Virus record (IMG/VR): IMGVR_UViG_3300009320_000083
Span: 1 to 31,284 of that record
Length of the DNA stretch: 31,284 nt
Strand: one strand, 5' to 3'
From: a virus
The notes under the pieces are model-generated. The model did no database searches, had not been told where the DNA came from, and worked only from the letters and a program-made list of their open reading frames with translations. Shown piece after piece: positions 4,593-31,284 of the stretch. Every line of letters starts with the position of its first letter. Positions within the stretch are counted from its first letter, which is position 1. The translations under genes and the position numbers were made by a program.

Positions 4593-5168
4593 CTAACCCT
4601 TGCGTTTCTTCAGATCCTCCAAAAGATCAGCTACGATTTTGTGTTTTATCTCATCGCCATTAAGGTAAAGCTTCGCAGCGATCTTCTCTTGCTCAGGAAC
4701 TGCTTTAGACTTAGCCATAGCTAGCACGAGATCGTTCTTGGCCAATGCGATCTCATCACGACGTGCTCGACTTTCTTGGTATAGATCTTGTTGCTGTTGA
4801 TCGGCGCGGTAGCGCTCCTTTTCAAGCACTGCTTCTTGCTCTAGCAATGCAATAGCTTGCGTATGAAAAGGTGTGCCTTCAAATTGACTGAGCCATGCTC
4901 CCTCGCCGTCTGAACTCATATTCAGAGTCCTGACAAAAGCGGTCTTGTTCTTAAGCACGCCCTCTGCGATCTGAGCCGCTCGCGCTTTGTTCCCATAATG
5001 CCGTCGATCGTTCATGACCTTCTTGATCTTTGGCAAGAGTTGAGAGGCTGCGATCTTATCTCGCACCCCGATTATCTCGTCGTGAGACAGGCTGGCCAGC
5101 CAATTCTCAAACTCCGCCTCTGCTTTCTTTTCTCGATACTCGATCAACTCTTGGGTGATGGGATCCAT
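4593..5168 (-). CDS. Helical, charged probable virion protein, 191 aa
   Basis: The ATG at 5168 overlaps the TAA of the preceding gene, and AGGAG precedes it by about seven bases. The protein is almost entirely helical and rich in Glu, Lys, Ala and Gln. It has a coiled-coil-like stretch around residues 105-140 (LLEQEAVLEKERYRADQQQQ) and ends in a basic DLKKRKG. It contains DKIAASQ and QEKIAAK, two copies of the short motif that recurs across this block. I do not recognise the family. It sits between another coiled-coil protein and the zinc-ribbon tail protein, so a tail chaperone or internal structural role is possible. Confidence 0.7.
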   Translation of the reverse strand: MDPITQELIEYREKKAEAEFENWLASLSHDEIIGVRDKIAASQLLPKIKKVMNDRRHYGNKARAAQIAEGVLKNKTAFVRTLNMSSDGEGAWLSQFEGTPFHTQAIALLEQEAVLEKERYRADQQQQDLYQESRARRDEIALAKNDLVLAMAKSKAVPEQEKIAAKLYLNGDEIKHKIVADLLEDLKKRKG

Positions 5169-6202
5169 TATCTAACTCCTGTGAAGGCTTGGCGGACAGC
5201 ACGCGCAACAGCAGGAGCCGCTGCTGCTCCTGCAGCAGCTCCCACGATGCCAGCGCCGACGGCGCTAAAGGCTGGGTGTTCACGATTGATAGTGGCTAGA
5301 TCTTTTGCGTACTTCGTACTGGCCAAACGGTATTTACCTAAGATACCAGGATGTGCTTTGTTCTCTTGTTGCAAACCTTTGATCCTATGCGCCAAAGATA
5401 TTTCCTTCCTGCTTGGCTGGCCCGGCTTATTCCGGCGATCAGACATGGCTTGCAGTCCAGCTGCTCCGCCCCCGGCAATGAGAGCTCCAGCAAGACGAGT
5501 AGCCATTTCTGCAGAGGCTGTTTTTTGTTGAACCGGCTGTTCTTGCGCTTGCGCTTGCGCTTGAACTGCAGAGAGATCTGCCATAGGAGCTCCAGTTACT
5601 GCTGCGGCTTGAGCAGCCGGATCTGACATTACAGCATCTAAGATACGGCGGCGATACTCTTGCATCTCGTGCTGGAGTCCCATAGCCTGTTCTTTAGCTG
5701 CGAAGCTTTCCTCTTGCGCGGTCATGGAATCTTGTCGAGCCAAATCTCTTTCGGCGCTAGCTTGCATCGCTTGTTGAGTAGCCTGCTGTTGTACGGCAGC
5801 TGCTTGCTCTTGTACTTGTTGCGCCTGCATTTCCAATTCCTGCGCCTGCTGGGCGGCTATAGCCGCCTGCTCCTGCGCCTGCTGTAGGGCTTGCTCTCCT
5901 TCAGCTACTTGCTCCTCGAGGTGAGCCAGGGCGTTCTGCTGCTCAATCTGATCGAGGGCAGGGTCTTCTTGGATAGGTGGTGTGGGTTTGGTCTCAGGCT
6001 TTTTTGCAGTAGGAGCCGGGCGTTTCTTAGCGCCCGGCTCTTCTGCCACATTATCCGCGGTTTCGGCGTCCATATCCGTTTCTTGATTGGAATCGATTTC
6101 ATCAAGAGAAGCAGCAGCTTTCTTCAACTTGTAAAAGAACTCAGCCTTGGCCTTCCATGGAATCTCTCTAACGCTGCGAAGTTCTCTCTCTATTCGATCC
6201 AT
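5168..6202 (-). CDS. Long coiled-coil, Gln/Ala-rich probable structural protein, 344 aa
   Basis: I place the start at the ATG at 6202 (MDRIER), because AGGAG lies six bases before it; the ATG at 6208 abuts that site. Residues about 35-85 are acidic and Pro-rich, probably disordered. Residues about 90-190 form a long coiled coil rich in Gln, Glu and Ala (EQALQQAQEQAAIAAQQAQE). The C-terminal third has two Gly/Ala hydrophobic stretches (RLAGALIAGGGAAGLQAM, and AVGAGIVGAAAGAAAAPAVA near the end). The architecture suits a scaffold-, tape-measure- or injection-like internal protein, but it is short for a tape measure. Its stop overlaps the next start (TAATG). Confidence 0.75.
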   Translation of the reverse strand: MDRIERELRSVREIPWKAKAEFFYKLKKAAASLDEIDSNQETDMDAETADNVAEEPGAKKRPAPTAKKPETKPTPPIQEDPALDQIEQQNALAHLEEQVAEGEQALQQAQEQAAIAAQQAQELEMQAQQVQEQAAAVQQQATQQAMQASAERDLARQDSMTAQEESFAAKEQAMGLQHEMQEYRRRILDAVMSDPAAQAAAVTGAPMADLSAVQAQAQAQEQPVQQKTASAEMATRLAGALIAGGGAAGLQAMSDRRNKPGQPSRKEISLAHRIKGLQQENKAHPGILGKYRLASTKYAKDLATINREHPAFSAVGAGIVGAAAGAAAAPAVARAVRQAFTGVR

Positions 6203-17609: not shown

Positions 17610-18347
17610 ATGCCCAATCACCTGAGAAGAGACCAAGTTGATCTGAATACAGCCGCTGCTATTCTAGGGGTAGGCACTAGAACAGTGGGCAGATATATAC
17701 GCATGCGTCTTCTTAAAGCAAAACGCGTAGGCCCTAGGAGATGTTATGCTATCAATCGATTTGCTGTAGAAGAACTAAAACAAAACCCCCCGGATATTAT
17801 TAGCAGAACTCCTTTCGGCCGATTACGCATTCGCGTCAATGCAGTCATTCAGCAGATCGAAAGTATTGAACGCCGGCTTGATCTCTTAATGGAGGCCAGC
17901 GGCCTCAATGTCTCAGGCCTTAGAGATGCTACGGACGAGGAATTGATCGCACTCCATAAAGAGGCAAAAGAATTCAAGGCAATAGATCACAAAAAGATTA
18001 CATTAGATCATATCCAAACATGGTGTCCGATCTTTGCACAACTTACTACGCTAGAGTTTGATCGACTGCTGAACCTCGTTCCAGAGGTTAGGCCTTGGAT
18101 GCCATTCTACGATCTCTGTATTCGATTCATGAGACATACACGCCGGCGTAATGCCTTCCGGACTTCTTGGCACTCTCAAGAAGCTTACCGACTTCTTGAG
18201 CGCGGCCGCAAAAATCTAGAGACTGCGATTATTGTGGTGACGGAGATGGTAGCCTATCGAACAGGTAGCGCCGCCGCTCAAAGACTTGATGCAGTAGCTC
18301 CTGCCAGAGACAACCTCCTTCGTATGGTTCGCGCACTCGAAAGATAG
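17610..18347 (+). CDS. Helix-turn-helix DNA-binding protein (MerR/excisionase-like N-terminus), 245 aa
   Basis: This is one of two genes against the main polarity. Residues 10-58 form a winged-helix or MerR/Xis-like domain: LNTAAAILGVGTRTVGRYIR is the helix-turn-helix, and VGPRRCYAINRFAVEELKQ is the wing and following helix. Residues 70-105 are a likely coiled coil (VNAVIQQIESIERRLDLLME) for dimerisation. The C-terminal 140 residues are helical and aromatic/Arg-rich with no domain I recognise, and no sensor cysteine cluster. GAGAG upstream is a weak ribosome site. It may regulate its own promoter or the divergent late genes, or serve as a recombination directionality factor; no integrase is in the window to support the latter. 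Confidence 0.75.
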   Translation: MPNHLRRDQVDLNTAAAILGVGTRTVGRYIRMRLLKAKRVGPRRCYAINRFAVEELKQNPPDIISRTPFGRLRIRVNAVIQQIESIERRLDLLMEASGLNVSGLRDATDEELIALHKEAKEFKAIDHKKITLDHIQTWCPIFAQLTTLEFDRLLNLVPEVRPWMPFYDLCIRFMRHTRRRNAFRTSWHSQEAYRLLERGRKNLETAIIVVTEMVAYRTGSAAAQRLDAVAPARDNLLRMVRALER

Positions 18348-18862: not shown

Positions 18863-18886
18863 TTGCCCCGTCCGGGGCAATTTTTT
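18863..18886 (+). terminator. Strong intrinsic terminator of the plus-strand cassette
   Basis: TTGCCCC and GGGGCAA pair across GTCC and are followed by six T residues, the classic form for rightward transcription. The T run overlaps the TerL stop codon (18885-18887), so it blocks the plus-strand transcript from running into TerL antisense. Read leftward there is no T run after the stem, so TerL transcription probably passes through. Confidence 0.85.
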
Positions 18887-20744
18887 AAGTTGCTAACCCC
18901 TTACGTCTGGTGGGTTGATCTGCGAAGTCTTGTTTTCGCGATGTCAGAATATCCGGACGAGGATATCTGATCATACTGGCGAGAGCACAGTACAAGATCG
19001 CATGGTGTGCATCGTCGGTTGTTCCCGGCGCGTGCTTGTACTCCATCTGGCGCAAGCGCTCGTTATACTCGCTAAAGATATTTAGAATGTCAGAGCCGTA
19101 GGGATCTATGAAGTCGTCCCAACAAGGCAGTTCGATCTTTTTCTGTACCATCGCGCGGAAGATGTCGGTCATGACTTCCGTACGGTGAACCATAAAGCGA
19201 CCGAGACCATCATCGAAATAGATCTTCGCTTTCTTCTGAGTTGGATTGTACTGATACTTAAAATATTTCTCCGGCCCGAAGACCTGCATCAGCGCGTGGT
19301 TTCGATCAAAACCACCGCCATAATCAGCACCTGCCATCGTAGCTTTAAACTTATTCAAAATATATTTGATCTCTACAATTTGCACATCGGGATCTGCCGA
19401 TGCTCCCACAAAGCGGTGGATCCAAAAGATGGTAAACTTGCCCGTGCCCATGTAAGCGCCCAAAGCAATAACCGTATATGAATTCTCGCTAGTTCCCCAA
19501 TCGATCCCCGCAAATATATCCTTGTCTCGCAACATCGAATGAAAGTGCTCAAAATCGCCAAGACGAAGTTCTGGATTACAACAAGCTTTGAGTTGAGCTT
19601 TTGTGATCGGCCGTACACCGCTATCATGGCTGATTCCTACTACCTCATTAAGAAATCTTGCCCTGCTGTACTGCTCTTGTTTTGTTAAAATTTGATCCCA
19701 TTCTTTTAAGATCCAAGGAACCATCAACTGCGGCAGACGATATCCCTCAAACGTAACTCGCTCTTTATTATTATTATTGATCGGGTTTAAAGATGCCCAG
19801 GTAGCGTCTGGATGATAAGGATTGATTGATCTTCGGCATCGACTGCAGATCAATCCCCTTTTACCTATATTCTTTTCGCGCAAAATATTCCAAAACCAGG
19901 TGCTTTTATCTTTTGCCGCCCCACATGCTTCGCAAGGAACGGCCCATTCATTTTGGGTACTGAACTTATGCCAGTAGTGTTCGAGCGTGTTGTCCGTGCT
20001 TTTTGGCGTGCCTGCATACAGAAAGAGCTTGAAGTCAGAGTGGCTGGCGCACTCCTCAATTACCGGCAAATTATCCACCAAAATATCTTGGATTTCATCC
20101 ACCTCTACCAAATCTGCTCTGATGCCACGAACTCGATCCGCGTTTAGGTAAGCGTATCTGATTCTGATAGATGAGTAGTTGATGAAGCGTTTATGAAAAA
20201 CAGCATTCGTGAGTTTCGTATTTGTGTAAGCTTGGACAGTTGGGCTCATTTCGATCGGTTCTGCAATCCGATCGTTGGAGAAAACTTTGGCCTGGAAGGC
20301 CGAGGGAGCGACGAATAAAGCCTTGAAAGCATTGTTCAAGCAGCAATACCCGAGAGTGCGATTGCCTAATGAGGTTGATTTCTCGCACTGACGTCCGGAC
20401 ACGAACAAAACCTTCTTAGCGTCGGTATCATATATCTTACGAAGGTACGGTCTCTCATTAAAAGAGAAGGCATCGATCTTACCTTCAGACGGAATTCTGA
20501 TCGCAGTTTCTGTGAAATCAGAATTGGAGAGATGATAAAACTCGGAGAGCTGCGCTTCCGATGGAGTGACATCTGGTGCTATTGTATCGAAATCATATTC
20601 TACCGGATCTAGATACTCCCCCTCGTCACTAAGATCGTACCACGGCTCTTCGTGAATTGATCCATCGGGGCCCTGGAAGGCGAGGCGTACGGGTACTATC
20701 CGTTGATCATGGTAGGATTCAAAGCTGTTTAGATCTACGATCAC
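18885..20744 (-). CDS. terL: Terminase large subunit, 619 aa
   Basis: The packaging motor ATPase and headful or site nuclease. The ATPase has Walker A SGRQCEKST (116-124), with Glu in place of the usual second Gly, and Walker B LVEVDEIQD (212-220). A zinc ribbon, CEAC (271-274) and CSRC (300-303), lies between the ATPase and nuclease domains, as in some GpA-like terminases. The RNase H-type nuclease has D415 (AGIDWG), D474 (AGADYGGG) and D577/D578 (TTDDAHHA), all intact. Length is typical. The start is GTG, directly after an in-frame TGA and overlapping the upstream stop as GTGA, with no clear ribosome site, so it relies on coupling. Identification is firm. Confidence 0.95.
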   Translation of the reverse strand: MIVDLNSFESYHDQRIVPVRLAFQGPDGSIHEEPWYDLSDEGEYLDPVEYDFDTIAPDVTPSEAQLSEFYHLSNSDFTETAIRIPSEGKIDAFSFNERPYLRKIYDTDAKKVLFVSGRQCEKSTSLGNRTLGYCCLNNAFKALFVAPSAFQAKVFSNDRIAEPIEMSPTVQAYTNTKLTNAVFHKRFINYSSIRIRYAYLNADRVRGIRADLVEVDEIQDILVDNLPVIEECASHSDFKLFLYAGTPKSTDNTLEHYWHKFSTQNEWAVPCEACGAAKDKSTWFWNILREKNIGKRGLICSRCRRSINPYHPDATWASLNPINNNNKERVTFEGYRLPQLMVPWILKEWDQILTKQEQYSRARFLNEVVGISHDSGVRPITKAQLKACCNPELRLGDFEHFHSMLRDKDIFAGIDWGTSENSYTVIALGAYMGTGKFTIFWIHRFVGASADPDVQIVEIKYILNKFKATMAGADYGGGFDRNHALMQVFGPEKYFKYQYNPTQKKAKIYFDDGLGRFMVHRTEVMTDIFRAMVQKKIELPCWDDFIDPYGSDILNIFSEYNERLRQMEYKHAPGTTDDAHHAILYCALASMIRYPRPDILTSRKQDFADQPTRRKGLAT

Positions 20745-21193
20745 TCAATTTCGTTGTTCAGTATGGCTACAAGCTGATGGCCAACTTGATCGATCCGAGC
20801 TGGTTTTACTGGCGAGGGTTTTTTGTCGACGTTCGGAATGATCGCGAAGTACGCTTTTACCTCATCCCGATAATCGTAATCTGGCGTATCAGCCGGGAAG
20901 ACACTTCTGATCGCAGCTTGAATCGCCAGGCCGAAGTGCCCCTTTCCCCAGTAACCATTAGGGATCTTAGCCCCGCGCCAGAAATGGAAGATCAAATGCC
21001 CGTCCTTAAACAAATGAGTCATACGAACAAAATCATTATCCACGACTTCAATCTCATCTGGCACGCCGTCCTCAACTTGTTCCAGCGGGAGTGCCTGATC
21101 AGCAGACAAATGATCGGCCCCCATCTCCCTAATCCGATCGTCCGGTACATCCTGGATGGTTGTGTGCTTAATATCGGGCTTTAAATTATTCAT
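20741..21193 (-). CDS. Unknown protein directly upstream of TerL, 150 aa
   Basis: I start it at the ATG at 21193 (MNNLKPDIKH): AGGAGG lies five bases before, while the upstream in-frame ATG at 21220 has none. The N-terminal 60 residues are acidic (TIQDVPDDRIREMGADHLSA). The remainder looks like a compact alpha/beta domain (FVRMTHLFKDGHLIFHFWRG; NGYWGKGHFGLAIQAAIRSV). It overlaps both neighbours. Position suggests a packaging accessory or small terminase-like role, but I see no helix-turn-helix and recognise no family. Confidence 0.65.
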   Translation of the reverse strand: MNNLKPDIKHTTIQDVPDDRIREMGADHLSADQALPLEQVEDGVPDEIEVVDNDFVRMTHLFKDGHLIFHFWRGAKIPNGYWGKGHFGLAIQAAIRSVFPADTPDYDYRDEVKAYFAIIPNVDKKPSPVKPARIDQVGHQLVAILNNEIE

Positions 21194-22040
21194 CAGATCC
21201 TCCTGTGTTCTCCGAGTCATTTCCGGCCGAGAGTAGATCTAGCTCAACCACTTTCGCTGTATCTACTCTCATCCGGAACTTCTGGAAGGTTTTAATTACC
21301 TCTTGCAGCGGTTTGCCGCTACGCTGCTGCATCTCATCGGCTAAAGATACAACAGATATGTATGTTTTTAACGTCCTCGCGGCCTTGGCACTTGCAGGCC
21401 GATGTTCAAGCTCCAACGCCTTACGATAAGCAATTTGAGCCATGTGGAGTGCCGCTTCTGTGAGATCAATTTGCGGCGCATCCACAAGACCCAACTCATG
21501 CGGTAATTGATCATTTACGACAGTCTTGTCAAGTGAGAGAGCGAGCGAAAGAGGGTACCACTCGTGTCGATCTATTATATATGAACTCCACTGCCCGGAG
21601 GACATGACTCCTTTGTTCCAGAAATAAAAAGAGTAATCGCGTAATCCAGATACCGTGAGTTTGATCTCCGTGATCGGCTGCGCGCGCCGAATGATCGTAG
21701 TAGGTGATATATCAGCTAAGAGCATAGGCTCGATCTTACTTCTCAACAATCTATCTTGAAGTATAGCGTGAGCTTCCTTAACTGCGAGCGTCTCGTGCCA
21801 CAGGTCATGAATCCTGTGCTTTCTAAGCCACTTCTTAGTGAGAACGTGTTTCGGGTCTTCTAGCTTGATCGGATCTGGGAAGGGCGCTAACTCTTTTCTA
21901 AGATCGTCTAAGTATGCTGTACTGACTGAGTCGATGTCAAGAGGCTCAACCATTTCTCTGATATCAAGCACATCGCACTCCGGATCGGAGAGCAAGAACT
22001 TGAGGAAATATTCGGAAGGGCTTCTTGCCTCATGAATCAT
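21186..22040 (-). CDS. Unknown protein two genes before TerL, possible packaging component, 284 aa
   Basis: The ATG at 22040 overlaps the preceding TGA as ATGA with no clear ribosome site. The N-terminal 100 residues are helical (SPSEYFLKFLLSDPECDVLD; TAYLDDLRKELAPFPDPIKL; KHVLTKKWLRKHRIHDLWHE). ILQDRLLRSKIEPMLLADIS followed by PTTIIRRAQ may be a helix-turn-helix, so a DNA-binding small-terminase function is conceivable. The middle has FYFWNKGVMSSGQWSSYIID. The C-terminal helix region (LTEAALHMAQIAYRKALELE) resembles a repeat or coiled coil. I do not recognise a family. Confidence 0.65.
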   Translation of the reverse strand: MIHEARSPSEYFLKFLLSDPECDVLDIREMVEPLDIDSVSTAYLDDLRKELAPFPDPIKLEDPKHVLTKKWLRKHRIHDLWHETLAVKEAHAILQDRLLRSKIEPMLLADISPTTIIRRAQPITEIKLTVSGLRDYSFYFWNKGVMSSGQWSSYIIDRHEWYPLSLALSLDKTVVNDQLPHELGLVDAPQIDLTEAALHMAQIAYRKALELEHRPASAKAARTLKTYISVVSLADEMQQRSGKPLQEVIKTFQKFRMRVDTAKVVELDLLSAGNDSENTGGSDE

Positions 22041-23983
22041 GCTTGCGCTGGTTTTTGGTGAGCAGAATCCCGAAGACTCGCGATAATTCGATCCAGGTGT
22101 TTAATCGCGCGACTGACTGTATTGGCATCCATCCGAAGGCCAATACGGGAAGCGATGAGGAGATCGCACAACTTATTCAGCGTCTCCTCCAGCTGAGGAA
22201 TTGCGTCGACAAATGTCTGCACGTTCTCGTCATTCAGAAAGTTCAATGACAGGACATTGTCTACAGATTGGGGATCGTCTATGAGTGCTGCAATCTTCGC
22301 AAGCGGCGCTTTTGCGAAGACCAGAGGGCTAGCTGCCTGCTTACACCTCTCCATTCTCTCCATCTCCAACGTAATCTCACGACAAAGAACGGGCACGGCT
22401 TTTCTCGTGCGAGCTACTGCGATCTTCTCTCTTCCTTCTTCAGGCGGTGTTCCGAGCACAGCGAGGCTAAACAGCGCGTCATCAACGTCAGTCAATTCAG
22501 TACGCAGCACCTTCCCAAGCTTTACTACCCCCGGACCACGAAGGTTAAAGGTTTGGCCATCGAAAAACAACTCCGCCTGGCGGGGTCGATCTTGTGCGGC
22601 CGCGAGCTTTGTAAAACCCTCAGCGCTCGCAAACAGCGCTGTCTTTTTAGGCAGCGGCAGGAATCCCATATCGTCAGGTATCGCATACTCACCTTTGCTC
22701 AACTTCATCACGCCTTTCAAGCCAGGCGTGAGGCGCAGCGTCGCGCTCTCTCCCAGGAGAGTCTTTACTTTGTAGACAATCTCCTCCCCCCTCTTTACCT
22801 TATTAACGACGTTCATTGGAAGAAGAGCGACAGCGCTGCCTTGTCGAGCTAGGTAAAACACGCCATCGCCGGACGGCGGAACGTCAATGATGTTTGTGCC
22901 CTTCCCTACAAAACTTCCTGCGATCTGCTCCTGAATCGCGGATTCGCTGCCGTTAGAAAACACAGCGAGGCCGTGCTGCACGCCATCCAGATCTACGGTG
23001 CTAGGAAATACCCAACCCTGTACCTGACGGCCGTCTTTTGTCTTCACGTTGTACTGGCCGAAGTCTTTGATGGTTTCGATCTTCACATCGCTGAGGGTCT
23101 TTTTCTCCGGCGCGTCTGTAGACAACGTTACTGTACCATCGTTCTCTACTTTCCGAACGATGTCGTGGCCGACAGCCGTAACTGCAGTTGGGCGATCGAC
23201 GGTTTCGATCTTGGGCGCCAACGCCGCAGGATTTGCTGTTTTGATCTTGAAGCCGCCGGGGACTTTACTTACTTGAAGCACTGTCGCTGGAACAGCTGCG
23301 GTCGCTAGCTTCTCCAACTCCTCACCAGAGACGGGATGAACGTTGGCTAACTTCTCCACATACCCTCGGCCGCTGTCGTTGGCTAGTAGCGCAGCCCTGA
23401 CACGCGGCTGGCTCTCCAACTCTTGGCGAAAACGTTCCAAGTCGCTTGCATTGATAGTCGTTGCTATCTTCTCCAGCAGAGATCCCTGCACGCTGGCCAA
23501 TTTTGGCTGGTAGCCACCGTTGTAGGAAGCACGGCTGGTGGAGAGTAGATCTTCCACGAAGTTGGAGCCTGGCATGTTTTTACGGGAAGCCTCAAACATC
23601 TGGGGGCGGAACATCGCGCGCTGCAACCGCTCTCTTGTCAGCGGCCAGGCTTTCTTGCCCGCAAGGAATGTCTCGAACGATTCGAGCTTGCCGTCCTTTA
23701 CGATCACAGGAATCAAGACCGCCTTGATTCCCTGAATCTTCTCCTTCGTATCTCTTGGATTGATCGCGGTTTTGTTCTGCAGACGGACAGAGCCGAGCAA
23801 GTATCTCTTCTCCTCATCCTGCTCTTTGATGTCAAGAAGCATGTCGAACTTGGCAGCGAACGGCGCCTGCCTGTGCAAAGCGTTCAGAATTTCGCTCTCC
23901 CACCTCTCAGTGTTCTCTGAGAGAGTAATGGTGGCGGCCGCAACCTTCGTTTTTTGTTCCGGCCGGTCCAGGAATAGATTCAT
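22037..23983 (-). CDS. Large probable virion protein, 648 aa, rich in K-[IVL]-A motifs
   Basis: GAGGGAGAG lies three bases before the ATG. Residues 1-140 form a domain with FDMLLDIKEQDEEKRYLLGS, IKAVLIPVIVKDGKLESFET and PLTRERLQRAMFRPQMFEAS. A similar pattern occurs, as I recall, in large-phage structural proteins; unverified. Residues 150-240 are helical with LEKIATTI, VEKLANVH and LEKLATAA. Residues 240-460 are beta-rich (VENDGTVTLSTDAPEKKTLS; YNVKTKDGRQVQGWVF). The C-terminus is helical with REKIAVAR and LAKIAALI. It lacks typical portal features, although it is the only protein here of portal size. An internal head or injected protein is my preferred guess. Confidence 0.7.
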   Translation of the reverse strand: MNLFLDRPEQKTKVAAATITLSENTERWESEILNALHRQAPFAAKFDMLLDIKEQDEEKRYLLGSVRLQNKTAINPRDTKEKIQGIKAVLIPVIVKDGKLESFETFLAGKKAWPLTRERLQRAMFRPQMFEASRKNMPGSNFVEDLLSTSRASYNGGYQPKLASVQGSLLEKIATTINASDLERFRQELESQPRVRAALLANDSGRGYVEKLANVHPVSGEELEKLATAAVPATVLQVSKVPGGFKIKTANPAALAPKIETVDRPTAVTAVGHDIVRKVENDGTVTLSTDAPEKKTLSDVKIETIKDFGQYNVKTKDGRQVQGWVFPSTVDLDGVQHGLAVFSNGSESAIQEQIAGSFVGKGTNIIDVPPSGDGVFYLARQGSAVALLPMNVVNKVKRGEEIVYKVKTLLGESATLRLTPGLKGVMKLSKGEYAIPDDMGFLPLPKKTALFASAEGFTKLAAAQDRPRQAELFFDGQTFNLRGPGVVKLGKVLRTELTDVDDALFSLAVLGTPPEEGREKIAVARTRKAVPVLCREITLEMERMERCKQAASPLVFAKAPLAKIAALIDDPQSVDNVLSLNFLNDENVQTFVDAIPQLEETLNKLCDLLIASRIGLRMDANTVSRAIKHLDRIIASLRDSAHQKPAQA

Positions 23984-24264: not shown

Positions 24265-25449
24265 TTATAGGCCCACCTTAATAGTTTTGGAAACATGGTT
24301 TTCCATTTGGGCGATCTGAGCCGGTATGCTCGGCGGCATGTGTCCCTGGATCAAATGCTGTGTCAGCCACACATTAAGCAACGTACCAAGAACTGCTCGT
24401 TCTATAGGTGCTGCTCCAATTGCGACACTCAACGCGCCTATTACTTTTGCACCAGCCCACGTTTCGGAACTAACGGTACCTTTGATCGTTTGTGCGCCTG
24501 TAAGTGTTTTTTCTTCCATCCCCGTGATTAAGACTTCGCGCTTTCCGACGATAGATAATTTATCTGTTCCAGTAATCGTAGTTTCTCGACCGGCTTTGAT
24601 CGTATGCGTTACCTTTGAGGAGATCGTCTTTGTTTCATCACCATCTTCCGTGACCTCAAAAGAATACACTGGAGAAGAGACACTGCCCTCCTCTACATCA
24701 ATGTGTTCTGGCGCTACATCGATCTTAAACCGGGTGCTGGAACCCACGTGGCCCGCCTGAATTTGAACAGAGGCCTTGCTATCGTCAACAGCATCTTTTA
24801 AGGATAGCCGCCATAAGGCATCCGCGTCTGTGCCTGGATCTGACTCTTTTCGATCTACAGACCAGGTCAACTCCCCGCCTGGTGTACGTAGGGCGTAGTT
24901 TTCACACGAATCTCTGATCATATTAAGGACAGGGATGTATACCCTCTGACTCATTGGAGTAGATCCTATCTCCAACAAGCCGCCACGGTGAAGCACTATA
25001 TGATTACCGTCCCTCCCGATCAAAGCCATGGTGCCTGGATTGAAGCGGCGAGCTCCACCACTAAAATCAAGTGTTGATTCTACGGCCTCGACAGCACCGG
25101 AAGAAACAGGCGATGTGGCTACCTCTTCGGTTTCCGTACCGCCAGATCCAACACTGTCTTCGAGATTCTTCTCTACTACCGCGCTCTTTGGTCTTGGGGA
25201 GGCAACAAAACAGGAGATGAACGCCGGAGAGTTATCGCTCGGTAGTACAACTCTTACTGCGGCGCCGATCTCGGGCTCTACTAAAAAACCCTCCCCGCTG
25301 TGATTGTGAAAATACGGAGATCCAATAATTACGTCAGTCCATACCTCGGACTCGTACTCGCTGGTGACGGTACAAGTCTTGGTCACATGATCTATATCCG
25401 AGATAGTCCCGGATTTAGTCCACGAGGGCCCGAGGTTAGGATCATTCAT
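24265..25449 (-). CDS. Baseplate central spike protein (OB-fold plus beta-helix), 394 aa
   Basis: The protein fits the membrane-piercing spike of contractile tails, like P2 gpV, T4 gp5 or VgrG. Residues about 12-85 form an OB-fold (GTISDIDHVTKTCTVTSEYE; EPEIGAAVRVVLPSDNSPAF). A Ser/Thr/Glu-rich linker (about 88-140) follows, then ALIGRDGNHIVLHRGGLLEI, and residues about 280-350 are short repeated beta strands (KAGRETTITGTDKLSIVGKR; EVLITGMEEKTLTGAQTIKG) as in a triple-stranded beta-helix. No lysozyme domain is present. It overlaps the preceding gene as ATGA. Its presence suggests the phage has a contractile tail. Confidence 0.75.
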   Translation of the reverse strand: MNDPNLGPSWTKSGTISDIDHVTKTCTVTSEYESEVWTDVIIGSPYFHNHSGEGFLVEPEIGAAVRVVLPSDNSPAFISCFVASPRPKSAVVEKNLEDSVGSGGTETEEVATSPVSSGAVEAVESTLDFSGGARRFNPGTMALIGRDGNHIVLHRGGLLEIGSTPMSQRVYIPVLNMIRDSCENYALRTPGGELTWSVDRKESDPGTDADALWRLSLKDAVDDSKASVQIQAGHVGSSTRFKIDVAPEHIDVEEGSVSSPVYSFEVTEDGDETKTISSKVTHTIKAGRETTITGTDKLSIVGKREVLITGMEEKTLTGAQTIKGTVSSETWAGAKVIGALSVAIGAAPIERAVLGTLLNVWLTQHLIQGHMPPSIPAQIAQMENHVSKTIKVGL

Positions 25450-25847
25450 CGCTGTCCAGCTTTATAGGCTACGACAGGAGCCGAAGCAACAGCAACTGTC
25501 TTGCCCAGAGGCGATCGAGCCAAGTTTGCAGCAGCTCCGGTAAATCCTCCGTGAGCGATGGGCTTACCAGCCATATCAGTAACAAACTTGCCTGTGCCGG
25601 CCTTGCCTGCTTTCCAGTGCCGGGTGATGTAATCGCCAAAACCCTTCTCTCCGGACTTGACGCCCAAAACTCTCTGAGCCACGCCCTTTGCTCCCTTTTC
25701 CGCGCCTACCCCAAATGCCCTGGAAAGGCCGGCCAAACCGTCGCCTATATATCGCGCTCCAGCGTCCAGGACTCCGGCAGTTTTGAACTTGCGAATCTCT
25801 TCCAACTCCGCCAAGAAGGCCTCTGCTCGAATTTGTGCAACGTCCAT
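25446..25847 (-). CDS. Small Gly/Ala-rich basic protein between RNA polymerase and spike genes, 133 aa
   Basis: AGGAG lies five bases before the ATG, overlapping the end of the RNA polymerase gene's stop codon region (8-base gap). The N-terminus is a short helix (IRAEAFLAELEEIRKFKTAG). The rest is Gly/Lys/Ala-rich (YIGDGLAGLSRAFGVGAEKG; KAGKAGTGKFVTDMAGKPIA) with a hydrophobic end (PLGKTVAVASAPVVAYKAGQ). This resembles the other small Gly/Ala-rich proteins of the block (3400-3717, 15745-16431). Function unknown; virion association is inferred from context. Confidence 0.65.
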   Translation of the reverse strand: MDVAQIRAEAFLAELEEIRKFKTAGVLDAGARYIGDGLAGLSRAFGVGAEKGAKGVAQRVLGVKSGEKGFGDYITRHWKAGKAGTGKFVTDMAGKPIAHGGFTGAAANLARSPLGKTVAVASAPVVAYKAGQR

Positions 25848-25855
25848 CGTATCTC

Positions 25856-28800
25856 CTAGTAGGGCTTGCCTTGGCCAAACTCTGTGCCGTGGACTATGCC
25901 CGGCATGGGGTGCGTTCCGTGTATGTTACTCACCCATCCTCTATTTGCCGCGTCTATTACAGTACCGTGAAGTTTTTCTCTGTTCAAGCGCGCCATCCAA
26001 TCAGATCGAATATGCTTAGGCATGGCATTCACGCCTTTCAGGATAGGAGTTATGCGCGGAGGCTTATGCAGCTTCAGCTTCCTAGACTCTGCTTTGATCG
26101 ACGTAAGAGGAACGAGATCTCCGCGAATTAACTCTGGGTGCGTGCCGGGATCTTCTATCTGTCCGAGGTTTGTGACAGCACGAACTACCGTCTCCACCTC
26201 ACGGCGGCGAATACCCTGGTTTTTGTAAATCCCATGCAACTGCCCCGATAGATAGTTTTGTACGGTGGGCAAGTTTGTAAGGGGCAGCAGCTCGTGTGGA
26301 TTGATCGGGCCGCGAGATAATGGATCTCCGCGCTTTACAGCCGCGCCAGGTTTTAGGGCCGCACGCTTTCCCGGCATAGTAGGCATGCCACGATCGTGTG
26401 GAACATAATGCCTACGATCGCCGACAAATACATCGTGGCCGCCGGCTGGACTTTTTGTGATTCTCGTAACAGTTCCTGTAGCTGTGCTCAATGGCGCTGA
26501 TTTAGGAATCGTTTCCTGCATACCGATCAATTGCTGCACACGGCGAAAATCATCCGTGAGTTGAGCTTTCTGTTTGCCTACTTCCCCAACAGGGGAGGTG
26601 CCGCCCGAATGGAAGACCCGCATCGCTAATTGGGTTGATCGCTCCCCCAGAGCTTGCCCGGCGATCACGCCAACGTTCTTACCTCTGCTTGGCAACTCCC
26701 CATTCTGCGTTAGGCCATAGCATTTTGCGCACATTCCATCACCGTGCTCACAACGTAGCGGAGAACGCACAACTATTTTTGACACCTTATTGTTGTGCAA
26801 TCGGTCTCTGACGCCGGGAGTGATAAGCGTTCCAGCCGGTAGTGCATGTTTTCCAGCTTTTACCTCCTTCACCAAAAAACGATCGAGAACATCTTTTTCG
26901 GCCACAGGGAGACTGATACCTTTCTTAGTTCCGCAATCATCAGCTCCCACAACTTGATTGAGGACTGTATTCATTACCTGCTTCGTTACATATCCAGGCC
27001 CCGCCACACTCTGGACCTTCTGGATAATTCCCTTACGCGCGCCGCTCATGCTGGTCCAATAATCAGCTACGTCCAAACCTTCAGAATAAGATCTCTGTAT
27101 TGGAGTTGGAATAACTTCTCGCTTAGCGTTCATCATTAAACCAGGAGTCGCTACGATCTGCCGATAGGTCTCCATCGTCGGCTTCATCCCAGCTTGCATC
27201 ATACTCCACAAGCGAGATCCCTTCTTTCCATGAGTATCCTCAATGCCCTTTACTATTTTTTGACTTGCGCGATCGTAGATCGTTACGAGCCGTTTATCTC
27301 GTTCTTTTTGTGGCAGGCCCAACGCTCGAATTTTATCCGCCTCCACGTTCGCGCCTTTCATGATCTTCTCGCGCAAGACCTTGTCCGGCTTTAGATCTTT
27401 TAGACTTAGTGAGAAAGCGGTACTCGTGGCATAGGTATTACCTATATCCTTGAACTTATTAGCCACACGATCAAAAGAGTCCTTATGTTTCTTACCAACA
27501 ACAGAAAGCAGTTGCGACTGACCTTTCTTGTCTAATGCAATACTCCCATCGAGGATACCTTGCCGCTCGGCCTTCATCTCAGCCGGCAGTTCTTTGGCTA
27601 ACATAGATCGACCGACAGTTGTTCGTTGTCCTCCGATCGTAGCAACGTCGGTCATTCCCAGCTTACCTGTAGAGACCGCACGTGCTGCCTCTGCCGTAGT
27701 TTTATATGATTGTTTGGTGCCCTTCCCCTTCTGCCCGATCATATAGAGCCCCAACTGCATCTCTTTCGTCGGTTTATATATCAGCTTACCAGACGCGGGA
27801 GAAAATAGATTATTGGAGGGATGCATTTTCCTAGCTTCCGCTACATCTTGATCAGTGAGGGGGACATAGGCGTTCATTTTGTCACCGTCGAAATCGGCGT
27901 TGAATCCACTAGTTACGAGCGGGTGGATCTTAATTGCGCTGCCGCCGGTAAGCACGGGATTGAAAGCTTGCACGCCGTATTTATGAAGAACTGGATCTCG
28001 TTTTAAGATCAACGGCCTATGCTCTACCACACGATCGAGTGCACGTTTTGCCGTCTCTGTATTTTCTCTAACCTCCTTCTGCGCCATTCCGGGAGTCAGC
28101 CCTGTTATACCGCGCACTTCTCGCACGACGAACGGTTTGTACAACTCCATCGCCGCCTTTCTAGGAATACCTACTTGATCTAATCCTAGATCTGGCTCAG
28201 GTACGATCACGCCTCTTGCGCTTAGATCTTGGCGACGCTTGACTAATTTTCTTTGGTAGAACCCTTCGGCCGGTTTGCCTACTTTGCTGCCAGACTTATC
28301 GATCCTTCTGCCTCTAATGATATCTAAAATCCCGCGGAACTTTCTGTTTTGATACCCACCCAATCCCGCTACTGACTGGAGGCGATCGTAGATAGAAGCT
28401 CGACGCTTATCTAACTCAGATTGCGGCAACAGCTTTGATGCTTTTGCTAGCTGGTTCACTGACAACCCCAACGCCTTATACATTCCGTTGGTGTCGTCCT
28501 CGTTTAGATCTCCATTCGGCAAAACAGCTAGTGGCCGAAACGATGGCGGAAGCACAGGCACGTGCTTTACCATGTAAGCATCTGTAGGATTAAGATCATT
28601 CTTCTTGAGAGCTTGTAAAAATTTGATCTTTCTGTTCACCACATCCAATCTCTGACCCTTGAGAGATGGATTCTTCACTGCTTGGAGAGATGTCTTTAGA
28701 TCTTTGTCTACATCTACTTTCCCCAGCAAACTTTCAATCGCCTTCCCGTATCGAAGTCCGCCCTCCCCTTCTACTACCTTGCCTGTCTTCGCATCGATCC

Positions 28801-31284
28801 CTGCCTTGCCAGACATGATCGATGCGAAGTCTTTCTTTCTGATGCCCGTTAGTCCGACGATACCAGCCTCGAAGATCGGATTTGGCATACGTTCCGGTAG
28901 GGTAATATGTGACCACTTAGTTCCTTCAACTCCACCTGTGATCTTTTTATCGAAGAGCCCATTTTCTTCTGGTTCCAACGACTTAGCCACTACCATTCTG
29001 CCGGCGTCTTTGAGCTCGCCGTTACTCATAGCCAACGTTTGTTTATCTGTCAAAGGGCTAAGACCGATCTTATTTCCATCTTTATTAACATTAACGCCCA
29101 ACGCTTTCATATAACCGAGGAAGCGGTTATAGCTAAAAGACGCCCTGGGTGGTGGAAGTGGATCACCAGACTGCAATGCCGACCACATATCTTCATTACC
29201 ATCGGCATTACTTTTATACGTTTGCATAGATCTGATGTTACTAGTAGTCCCGTGCGCTAGCATGGCGTACAGGCCGAGTGCATCCATACTCTGTGCACTA
29301 TTCGGCCCACCTGCTTTTGGCATCTTGTCAGGATCGTAGGCGTAGCCTGGACCACCAGCACGAGCTAGCAAAGCCTTCCCTGCTTGGTGTTTGAACTTGT
29401 GTATGTACTGCGGACCTACTGCTGCCTTGCCCGCTAACTTAGATCCAGTGACCTTACCCGTCTTCTTATCCACCTCCGGGATGTAGATCTCCTCCTCGTC
29501 CTCAACGCCATGTTTTTTTAGATCTTTAGTTATGCGATCGTTCCAATCTTCTGTCCCATCGAAGTTTTGGATCAAATATGGCTTACCAGTTTTTTGTGCG
29601 ATCTTGGCTGCCGCAGTTTCAAGAGTCTGTCCTAAATTGATCCTCCCGGGAACGCTTGCTGGACTCATAATGAGTTCGATCGGCTTACCATTTTTTCTTT
29701 GGGGCATTTGTTCGTCAGGAACGATCTGAGTCAAGATCCCCTTGTTTCCGTGACGACCTGCGATCTTATCGCCGATCTCTGCCGGCTCGTCCGTGCGAAC
29801 GTGCACCTCCAACTTCTCGCCTCGTTCTGTTGGGCGATTTACTACCTGCACTACTTTTCCAGGATAATCGCTCTCCCAACGAACAGCAGCATCGTTGGTG
29901 GTACGCAGTAAACTTTTATGCATGCGGCCCATTAGGCGAGCCTCATCATCAGTTTCTCTAACCTTGCGCGCAGCTGCAATTAAAGTATCGCCAGGAGCTA
30001 CAGGACTACCCAAACGAATAACGCCTTTTCGATCTAACTTCTTAGCTTGATCTTTTGTGAGAGACGTTCCGTGATGAGCTATGTAATGCTCGCGATCAAC
30101 TATGTGTTGATCTGAAACATCGACACCCTTACGGTGCATGTGTTCTGAGGTTAATTTTTTAGCGCCAGACTCACTAACGACTACCCCGTCCTCATAATTC
30201 AACCCATGCCAGGGCATGTACGCAGTTTCTAAATTCGTACCAAGTGCGAGCTTTCCTTTTTTTGTAAAGTTCGTATCCGCCAGAACTTGATCGCTCTTTA
30301 CCTTATCGCCTACTCGCACGTTAGGCGTGCTGTGCATGACGCTCTTATTATCATTCAGTGGAAAGTAGTTGTAGAGCCCGACCTTTTGTGTTTTGCCTTT
30401 CTCATCTTTGATGGTAATTCGATCGGGCGTCACTTCCTCTACAGTTCCGGCGCCGCGCGCGCGCTGCGAGCTCATTCTTCCTAGCATCTTGTTAAAGGAG
30501 AGAGGTTCCTTGCGGTCGCCAGATACTACGGTCTGAACTAAAGGCTCCTCTCTGTGTTTGAGCGAGAGAGCTTGCTCCATATGTCTACCAGCCATGGTCG
30601 ATCTATTGCCGCTAGTGTTTTGCATAAACGGAATGAGATTTGAAGAGGCGCTGGCAAGTTGTGTCGGGCTAGGCATTACATACTGAGCATCAGCCAAAGA
30701 CCCATCTTCTACTTGATTACCATCGCCGGAGATTCTGATCTTCTTTTTAAGCGCAACAGGACGTCCTCGATCCCACTTAACTTGATCGGGAAAGACAACC
30801 TTTGACTTGTAAGCTTTGGCTGGAGGCACCATCTCTATCTTTTTAGTCTTGGTATTGTACAACGGCATGACCGCTGTATCGCCTGACTTCCTCGCACCCA
30901 AAGCAAGCTGCAACGTCACACCGCTGCGGCTCGACTCCGGCGTGTGCATGGGATCAAGAAAACCAAGGTGGGAAGGGTCAACTAATTTAGCATCTTCCGT
31001 GATTTTATGCTCGCTGGTAATGCCGCCCTCTCCCATGGGAGTAGTACGCATCTGGCCAGTTACCATCTCCAACGGATTGATTTGATCGGGAGTGTTTGCC
31101 AAAGAACTTTTGAACACGCCGGCTATCGGTCTATCAAATAGATCGGCAGCCACGACAGCGCTCACACGCCGGCGACGATCAATATTATTAGCAATGCGGC
31201 GCTTTATTTCAGGAGCCTTGGCTTGAAGTGTCTCTCCTATATAATCCTCGATCGAACGTAACTTCTTGAACATTAGAGCATCGC
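25856..31284 (-). CDS. Single-chain fused beta-beta' multisubunit-type RNA polymerase, 5' end outside window
   Basis: DNA-directed RNA polymerase. From the ATG at 31273 it has 1805 codons, but the frame is open to the edge (D-A-L before the M) and no ribosome site precedes that ATG, so the start lies outside. Beta part (about 1-728): IDPMHTPES-like fork sequence (LDPMHTPESSRSG), SSNLIPFMQ, MPWHGLNYEDG (about 353), GDKIAGRHGNKG (RHGNKG at 507-512) and a beta C-terminus AMLAHGTTSNIRSMQTYKSN. Beta' part: GLFDKKITGG, GFYQRKLVKRRQDLSARGV, the catalytic NADFDGD (1125-1131), bridge-helix GARKG, zinc site 2 (DDCG near 1445; CEHGDGMCAKC near 1506-1518) and trigger loop GERSTQLAMRVFHSGG (about 1542). 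The N-terminal beta' zinc domain is absent. It heads the virion operon here. Confidence 0.95.
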   Translation of the reverse strand, partial: DALMFKKLRSIEDYIGETLQAKAPEIKRRIANNIDRRRRVSAVVAADLFDRPIAGVFKSSLANTPDQINPLEMVTGQMRTTPMGEGGITSEHKITEDAKLVDPSHLGFLDPMHTPESSRSGVTLQLALGARKSGDTAVMPLYNTKTKKIEMVPPAKAYKSKVVFPDQVKWDRGRPVALKKKIRISGDGNQVEDGSLADAQYVMPSPTQLASASSNLIPFMQNTSGNRSTMAGRHMEQALSLKHREEPLVQTVVSGDRKEPLSFNKMLGRMSSQRARGAGTVEEVTPDRITIKDEKGKTQKVGLYNYFPLNDNKSVMHSTPNVRVGDKVKSDQVLADTNFTKKGKLALGTNLETAYMPWHGLNYEDGVVVSESGAKKLTSEHMHRKGVDVSDQHIVDREHYIAHHGTSLTKDQAKKLDRKGVIRLGSPVAPGDTLIAAARKVRETDDEARLMGRMHKSLLRTTNDAAVRWESDYPGKVVQVVNRPTERGEKLEVHVRTDEPAEIGDKIAGRHGNKGILTQIVPDEQMPQRKNGKPIELIMSPASVPGRINLGQTLETAAAKIAQKTGKPYLIQNFDGTEDWNDRITKDLKKHGVEDEEEIYIPEVDKKTGKVTGSKLAGKAAVGPQYIHKFKHQAGKALLARAGGPGYAYDPDKMPKAGGPNSAQSMDALGLYAMLAHGTTSNIRSMQTYKSNADGNEDMWSALQSGDPLPPPRASFSYNRFLGYMKALGVNVNKDGNKIGLSPLTDKQTLAMSNGELKDAGRMVVAKSLEPEENGLFDKKITGGVEGTKWSHITLPERMPNPIFEAGIVGLTGIRKKDFASIMSGKAGIDAKTGKVVEGEGGLRYGKAIESLLGKVDVDKDLKTSLQAVKNPSLKGQRLDVVNRKIKFLQALKKNDLNPTDAYMVKHVPVLPPSFRPLAVLPNGDLNEDDTNGMYKALGLSVNQLAKASKLLPQSELDKRRASIYDRLQSVAGLGGYQNRKFRGILDIIRGRRIDKSGSKVGKPAEGFYQRKLVKRRQDLSARGVIVPEPDLGLDQVGIPRKAAMELYKPFVVREVRGITGLTPGMAQKEVRENTETAKRALDRVVEHRPLILKRDPVLHKYGVQAFNPVLTGGSAIKIHPLVTSGFNADFDGDKMNAYVPLTDQDVAEARKMHPSNNLFSPASGKLIYKPTKEMQLGLYMIGQKGKGTKQSYKTTAEAARAVSTGKLGMTDVATIGGQRTTVGRSMLAKELPAEMKAERQGILDGSIALDKKGQSQLLSVVGKKHKDSFDRVANKFKDIGNTYATSTAFSLSLKDLKPDKVLREKIMKGANVEADKIRALGLPQKERDKRLVTIYDRASQKIVKGIEDTHGKKGSRLWSMMQAGMKPTMETYRQIVATPGLMMNAKREVIPTPIQRSYSEGLDVADYWTSMSGARKGIIQKVQSVAGPGYVTKQVMNTVLNQVVGADDCGTKKGISLPVAEKDVLDRFLVKEVKAGKHALPAGTLITPGVRDRLHNNKVSKIVVRSPLRCEHGDGMCAKCYGLTQNGELPSRGKNVGVIAGQALGERSTQLAMRVFHSGGTSPVGEVGKQKAQLTDDFRRVQQLIGMQETIPKSAPLSTATGTVTRITKSPAGGHDVFVGDRRHYVPHDRGMPTMPGKRAALKPGAAVKRGDPLSRGPINPHELLPLTNLPTVQNYLSGQLHGIYKNQGIRRREVETVVRAVTNLGQIEDPGTHPELIRGDLVPLTSIKAESRKLKLHKPPRITPILKGVNAMPKHIRSDWMARLNREKLHGTVIDAANRGWVSNIHGTHPMPGIVHGTEFGQGKPY

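Follow-up and report, generated by a model that had tools for sequence, protein, structure and literature searches.

A fused beta-beta' RNA polymerase lacking the N-terminal beta' zinc domain in an environmental phage fragment and its relatives

The polymerase gene and its surroundings

The window, i.e. the whole stretch of DNA analysed here, is a linear IMG/VR fragment of 31,284 bp (G000), one end of which is occupied by an RNA polymerase (RNAP) gene on the minus strand (25856..31284). The 5' end of this gene is lost at the contig edge: a single frame (25856..31273, 1805 aa) continues without a stop codon up to position 31282, and the ATG at 31273 is internal rather than the start of the gene. 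Approximately 273 N-terminal residues are absent, the window's 'DALMFKKL' aligning with 'DSLRFKDL' at around residue 274 of the homologue in contig L002, a single ORF of 2464 aa that is ∼2057 aa long without its ∼407-aa intein. As a 31-kb fragment, the window leaves the N-terminus of the enzyme, any sigma gene and any early promoters of the virus beyond its ends.

The original prediction had read motifs of both bacterial-type large subunits in this one frame, and all of them were confirmed at the residues to which it had assigned them. Profile searches gave the same picture: Pfam RNAP domains of the two subunits follow one another along the chain, Rpb2 domains 3 and 6 preceding Rpb1 domains 1–5 (best E-value 2e-55), although the scores of Rpb1 domains 1 and 3 stay under the curated threshold and the match to domain 4 is weak and sub-threshold. 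Judged by Pfam and by alignment to the Escherichia coli subunits, the beta part, from Rpb2_3 to the beta C-terminus, spans 29081..31282 and the beta' part 25859..29080, both on the minus strand, as are all features of the gene. The beta part contains MPWHGLNYEDG (residues 353–363), the flap with the flap-tip helix LMGRMHKSLL (29840..29992), which by homology would contact sigma region 4 as it does in bacteria, and the catalytic motif GDKIAGRHGNKG (residues 501–512; 29738..29773). In the beta' part, alignment and motif checks located the clamp helices, shortened and by homology the expected contact of sigma region 2 (28298..28486), the catalytic Mg2+ motif NADFDGD (residues 1125–1131; 27881..27901), the bridge-helix motif GARKG (residues 1411–1415; 27029..27043), the retained second zinc site with Cys1447, 1508, 1515 and 1518 (26720..26938), and the trigger loop region QALGERSTQLAMRVFHSGG, ending in FHSGG at residue 1558 (26600..26656). 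The ORF runs on past the trigger loop to the beta' C-terminus, and there is no separate gene for the C-terminal part of beta'.

The two subunits are joined at ALGVNVNKDGNKIGLSPL (residues 724–741; 29051..29104). Alignment to E. coli RpoB and RpoC places the end of beta, 'KALGVNVNKDGN', practically without a linker before the start of beta', 'IGLSPLTDKQTLAMSNGEL', as had been predicted; the tail of ∼20 residues with which E. coli beta' begins is missing. Shortly after the junction, residues 772–799 (28877..28960) mark the site of the absent N-terminal beta' zinc domain. The corresponding interval in E. coli, GLFCARIFGPVKDYECLCG...CEKCG...MGHIEL, comprises 53 aa with five Cys, four of them zinc ligands; in the window it is reduced to GLFDKKITGGVEGTKWSHITL, 21 aa devoid of Cys. 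The predicted loss of this domain is borne out well beyond the window, since none of the 93 sequences covering the interval (window included) has a Cys there.

Structure prediction for residues 480–1180, which include the GDK motif, the junction and the Mg loop, yielded a confident model (mean pLDDT 86, pTM 0.78). Its best matches among solved structures were bacterial beta' subunits, at ∼3 Å over ∼490 aligned columns, and the best matches among predicted viral proteins were weaker than these.

The genes following the polymerase form a late virion block, in the order RNAP, small gene, spike-like gene, two conserved genes and terminase large subunit (TerL), that is shared with about 20 relatives; all lie on the minus strand. 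The small gene directly downstream (25446..25847) is conserved in position only (L006, L012 and L019). Next comes a probable baseplate/spike OB-domain protein (24265..25449), syntenic in 20 relatives, whose homologue in L006 matches Phage_base_V below the cut-off (E 0.014). Two conserved virion-module proteins, at 22037..23983 and 21186..22040, are syntenic in 20 and 19 relatives, respectively. The terminase large subunit (18885..20744) is of the gpA type and homologous to gp1 of Salmonella phage Arash (28.8% over 532 aa); PF05876 and phrog_675 fit it better than PF03237, which is matched only below the cut-off (E 3.5e-4). On the other side of the RNAP gene, upstream, Arash has a portal gene, and several relatives have a portal-sized ORF in that place. 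For most other window genes PHROG and Pfam annotation returned nothing. Beside the terminase gene, a 245-aa ORF on the plus strand (17610-18347) matches its equivalent in L019 (26%, E 1.7e-16) and is, by this conservation, probably a real gene running in the opposite direction to the virion operon.

Fused polymerases in other phages

Searching IMG/VR with a single sequence retrieved only one relative, and alignment-based queries were needed: a two-sequence alignment gave 27 relatives, and a broader one at least 507 confirmed stretches, of which the best 80 were retained. A full-length fused ORF was present in 78 of the 94 IMG/VR loci examined, and no intact gene was truly split; the remaining 16 were cut by contig edges, except for one frameshift. 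Most full-length ORFs encode 2007–2207 aa, those bearing inteins being longer. The window contig is a fragment that ends within the RNAP gene, which might raise the suspicion that separate beta and beta' genes were joined during assembly. This explanation is refuted, its probability being practically nil, because the 78 fused ORFs are independent, coming from many metagenomes, and complete isolate genomes share the same junction. The three catalytic Asp residues are conserved throughout the family, the sole deviation being three contigs with an intein at NADFDGD, and the Cys residues of the second zinc site are kept in 84–85 of 89 sequences.

Inspection of the alignments further revealed that intein-like insertions occupy seven or more distinct positions in the fused RNAP, mostly within catalytic motifs or next to them: NADFDG^, GDKL^, GRHGNKGIIT^, NPTGIP^, (T/L)K^SD, the second zinc site and the trigger loop (FH^TGG). 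They are carried by L002, L011/L012/L016, L013, L020, L023, L025 and L028; the window copy is intein-free. Four such inserts occur in the one 3591-aa ORF of L023, and the trigger-loop site is occupied in L002, L023 and L028. The 494-aa insert within the catalytic NADFDGD of L012 (7137-14879; also in L011 and L016) has unusual ends, FDGN|C...VVWD|TM, the third catalytic position being Asp or Asn depending on the splice point. In L015 (7122-13406), which is the same virus as L024, the reading frame of the RNAP is interrupted between beta residues ∼677 and 692, probably by a sequencing or assembly frameshift.

Among cultivated phages, the collection of phage GenBank genomes contains the same fusion in Arash (gp206; OQ632216, of the proposed genus Arashvirus, PMC10585845) and in Vibrio phage D69; in these two and in D148 and D181 the junction is the same and the zinc domain is absent. 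Their relationship to the window extends to the related terminase, the portal-RNAP gene order and the gp10-like sigma gene found in relatives of the window. They differ in sequence, the Arash chain being ∼31% identical to the window protein, and in that gp206 and its D69 counterpart stop inside beta', the remaining C-terminal part being a second gene farther on (gp216 in Arash). In both phages (L003, Arash 130093-141261; L004, D69) beta' is thus divided after the catalytic barrel, with other genes between the halves; in D148 and D181 the match additionally extends across a homing endonuclease. Enzymes of the phiKZ type and of cyanobacteria have likewise been reported to be divided behind this barrel (PMC7598289).

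The suggestion that the window encodes a distinct type of polymerase stands in part: the enzyme is fused and set apart, but it is not unique to the window and had already been deposited as Arash gp206. The fusion itself is therefore public, albeit uncommented, and the available part of the Arash paper does not discuss it (PMC10585845). The literature searched, which was covered in part, yielded no account of phage enzymes that unite a conserved and complete joining of beta to beta', an otherwise almost fully bacterial anatomy, the loss of the N-terminal zinc domain and a sigma factor conserved alongside, although such sequences are public.

Another phage group (L029-L031, L141) encodes a separate beta' of ∼1004 aa followed by a beta of ∼1365 aa. 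In L029-L031 this order, beta' before beta, is the reverse of that in the fused chain, and the proteins are 24% identical to the window protein. These split-type beta' subunits likewise have no zinc domain. Since the domain is also absent from the unfused L029 and L030, fusion and zinc loss are separate traits and, to judge from these sequences, the loss is the wider of the two.

Relationship to bacterial and other phage polymerases

In order to place the family relative to cellular enzymes, trees were built with FastTree and a quick IQ-TREE search using 23 bacterial references, namely 22 beta and beta' pairs from GTDB genomes and that of E. coli. Phage sequences and bacterial pairs were separated by a branch with support of 100 (FastTree; IQ-TREE SH-aLRT), so that the window enzyme lies outside bacterial rpoBC in a tree where, it should be noted, long branches meet. 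The fused group (support 93) is sister to Arash and D69 (support 100), and L029 and L030 (metagenomes 3300017989 and 3300017987) join the phage side via a very long branch. These trees comprise phage and bacterial sequences without an archaeal outgroup and are therefore read as unrooted, showing a separation of the two sides rather than a sister relationship. The window protein is 57–59% identical to its nearest relatives (L006, L007 and L012), 24% to L029 and 26–28% to each of the 23 bacterial pairs, and its earlier description as 'nearly bacterial' was accordingly an overstatement.

Fused rpoBC genes occur in the bacteria Helicobacter and Wolbachia with the same head-to-tail order of beta and beta', and the phage gene might be imagined as a recent capture of such a host gene. 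On present sampling this origin is refuted and we regard it as extremely improbable: the well-supported branch separates all phage enzymes from the bacteria, identity is ∼27% to every bacterium tested, the phage enzymes have no zinc domain, and the 80 best genome matches comprised ordinary bacterial rpoB and rpoC only. Taken together, the gene almost certainly encodes a fused, zinc-domain-less and catalytically intact phage RNAP.

Phage RNAPs with two barrels, RNAPs carried in virions, and phage beta and beta' that resemble the bacterial subunits are already known. Enzymes of the phiKZ/AR9 type are likewise two-barrel RNAPs without alpha or omega (PMC7598289, PMC8287921, PMC9209446), exist in virion forms and have a sigma-like specificity subunit. 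However, their beta and beta' are distributed over four or five chains and far more diverged, and the sigma-like subunit is hardly recognisable, whereas in the window family everything is fused and the sigma factor is recognisable; the window RNAP is a single ORF, distinct from the split phiKZ-type enzymes (PMC7598289) as had been supposed. Both barrels lie on one polypeptide in crAss-like phages, YonO and P23-45, the latter including a virion enzyme (PMC10770324, PMC7481178). These proteins have little sequence similarity to cellular RNAPs, whereas the window enzyme aligns with bacterial beta and beta' over its full length and its cellular RNAP domains are readily detected by Pfam, which upholds the distinction originally drawn from the crAss and YonO enzymes. 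With bacterial RpoB and RpoC the family shares domain order, catalytic motifs, the second zinc site, the flap and the clamp helices; the bacterial proteins differ in possessing the zinc domain, in being accompanied by an alpha gene and in forming a separate clade.

A further parallel is mReC (Weinheimer and Aylward 2020, PMC7481178), a deep clade outside cellular enzymes whose beta and beta' are likewise bacterial-like and can be aligned; its sequences come from metagenome contigs of tailed phages in IMG/VR. The window protein resembles it in that both of its subunits can be aligned and yet fall outside the bacteria in the tree. Compared by description, mReC differs in that separate subunits are reported, fusion being mentioned only for crAss-like phages in the available part of that study (PMC7481178). 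The split-type contigs L029-L031 come from the same metagenome series as two mReC exemplars given there. Of the two Pfam families used to compare genomes with mReC, capsid PF07068 matched none of 17 relatives, but the controls were equally empty, and terminase PF03237 was matched in the window only below the cut-off. The mReC study argued for an ancient origin (PMC7481178), a view that the present tree neither confirms nor refutes.

Sigma factors, a candidate promoter and proposed virion packaging

The loss of the zinc domain had originally been taken to hint at sigma independence. This is not supported, because a sigma-70-family gene resembling Arash gp10 is present in 25 of the 31 family contigs of at least 100 kb (8/9 in the first set and 17/22 in the second) as well as in both isolates, Arash and D69. 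The gp10-like profile matched SigA of the PDB over regions 2–4 (E 1.8e-18), all chains listed being sigma factors, and Pfam Sigma70_r3 scored above the cut-off in the four members tested. Given that the structure model was weak (pTM 0.41; top Foldseek matches were again sigma factors), the assignment is based on sequence evidence. In L213 and L215, where the neighbour was checked directly, the sigma gene immediately follows a virion gene resembling Arash gp8, and in L212, L214 and L216 a gp8-like gene falls within the stretch around the sigma match. Within the 31-kb window there is no match to gp10-like sigma, which is present in the nearest long relatives, G002 and G006.

A core enzyme that recognises promoters by itself or with a non-sigma factor, the zinc loss going along with this ability, would agree with the failure to detect gp10-like sigma in six of the 31 large contigs, including G020 (171 kb) and G029 (150 kb), and in all three split-type contigs. 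It would also recall the phiKZ-type phages, whose genomes have been described as lacking recognisable initiation factors (PMC7598289) and whose enzymes rely on highly diverged sigma-like subunits (PMC8287921, PMC9209446). The wide occurrence of a recognisable sigma gene, the presence of its product in Arash virions and the retention, in the alignment, of the flap-tip and clamp helices, the parts by which bacterial enzymes grip sigma, make such an enzyme improbable. No alpha subunit (PF01000) was found in 11 large relatives, whereas 13 of 14 controls were positive. Where a single chain supplies both barrels, alpha might no longer be required as a scaffold.

A shared sequence, GGTATAAG, with the extended consensus tGGTATAAGtAAagTGTAaA, is found upstream of genes in Arash; it was discovered in this phage and afterwards tested in the other genomes. 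Observed against expected occurrences are 31/2.6 in Arash, 13/1.1 in G006, 17/0.9 in G007, 10/1.2 in G002 and 28/3.4 in G013, an 8- to 20-fold enrichment, and in the same five genomes a ribosome-binding site with a start codon follows the element within 70 nt far more often than in the background. The signal is weaker in G019, there is no clear enrichment in D69, G009, G010, G012, G022 and G028 and none in the split-type controls G016 and G017, and the element is absent from the window, which holds late genes only. A -35 element has not been established. We infer that the fused enzyme together with the gp10-like sigma reads this candidate promoter; as it resembles an extended -10 element, reading by the host sigma-70 is possible.

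The link to the virion comes from Arash. Mass spectrometry of its particles (PMC10585845) detected the fused chain gp206 with 3516 spectra, the most of any protein, structural ones included, along with gp216 (the rest of beta'; 1210), the helicase gp217 (1148) and the sigma factor gp10 (467). The authors gave two possible reasons, namely that the enzyme transcribes early in infection or that abundant protein is carried over (PMC10585845). Were the latter true of the whole family, the polymerase would be made during infection for middle or late genes and its presence in particles would be incidental. This would fit the position of the gene among late genes, whose own expression depends on transcription at a prior stage, as well as the second sigma factor of Arash, gp196. 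We consider it unlikely in view of the high counts for gp206, gp216 and gp10, the position of both RNAP and sigma genes within virion modules of diverse genomes, and the distribution of the element in Arash, where 30 of the 31 GGTATAAG sites are on the strand of the replication and small genes, not that of the structural genes.

We therefore favour, with a probability of about 0.7, a virion-delivered, sigma-directed, single-chain RNAP. The window gene would be the main part of a tailed-phage polymerase in which the head-to-tail fusion of beta and beta' tethers both catalytic barrels, making an alpha scaffold unnecessary. The bacterial catalytic apparatus is retained in full, with the Mg2+ loop, the bridge helix, the trigger loop and the second zinc site, as are both sigma-docking surfaces; the losses are confined to the periphery, the N-terminal beta' zinc domain being one of them. 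As the product of a late virion-module gene, the enzyme would, by analogy with Arash, be packaged and enter the cell with the DNA, pair there with the phage sigma-70-family protein from the same virion module, and initiate at phage promoters, for which GGTATAAG is the probable element. Packaging in this virus, partnership with sigma, promoter recognition and function without alpha are all inferred. Against this reading it counts that virion packaging is known from Arash alone, whose enzyme is 31% identical and has the end of beta' on a chain of its own, that six of the 31 large contigs yielded no gp10-like sigma, and that GGTATAAG is absent or weak in several family genomes.

A further-reaching proposition stands in our estimate at even odds: a large, undescribed class of tailed phages would inject a complete bacterial-type RNAP as one chain of ∼2050 aa, with tethered barrels, no alpha scaffold and the zinc domain discarded, along with a dedicated sigma-70-family factor reading GGTATAAG promoters, and would thus bring in its own holoenzyme with the particle. 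If true, one chain plus one sigma factor would be the simplest bacterial-like RNAP architecture known. It would allow one to ask whether alpha is needed only for bringing beta and beta' together, and what role is played by the N-terminal beta' zinc domain, removed in evolution while the rest stayed. Virions of this phage group seem to contain a promoter-specific holoenzyme of phage origin, and the group offers a culturable relative, Arash, and a candidate promoter.

Additional sigma-related genes were observed in the family. Arash gp196 (120656-121693), encoded besides the virion sigma gp10, is a more canonical sigma-70 protein, and Sigma70_r2 is also matched in D69 (262-aa frame) and G013 (203-aa frame). 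In G033 (4788-5549) and G023 (131357-132115) the gp10-like match lies in longer frames of 702 and 404 aa, respectively, in which sigma is possibly fused to other domains.
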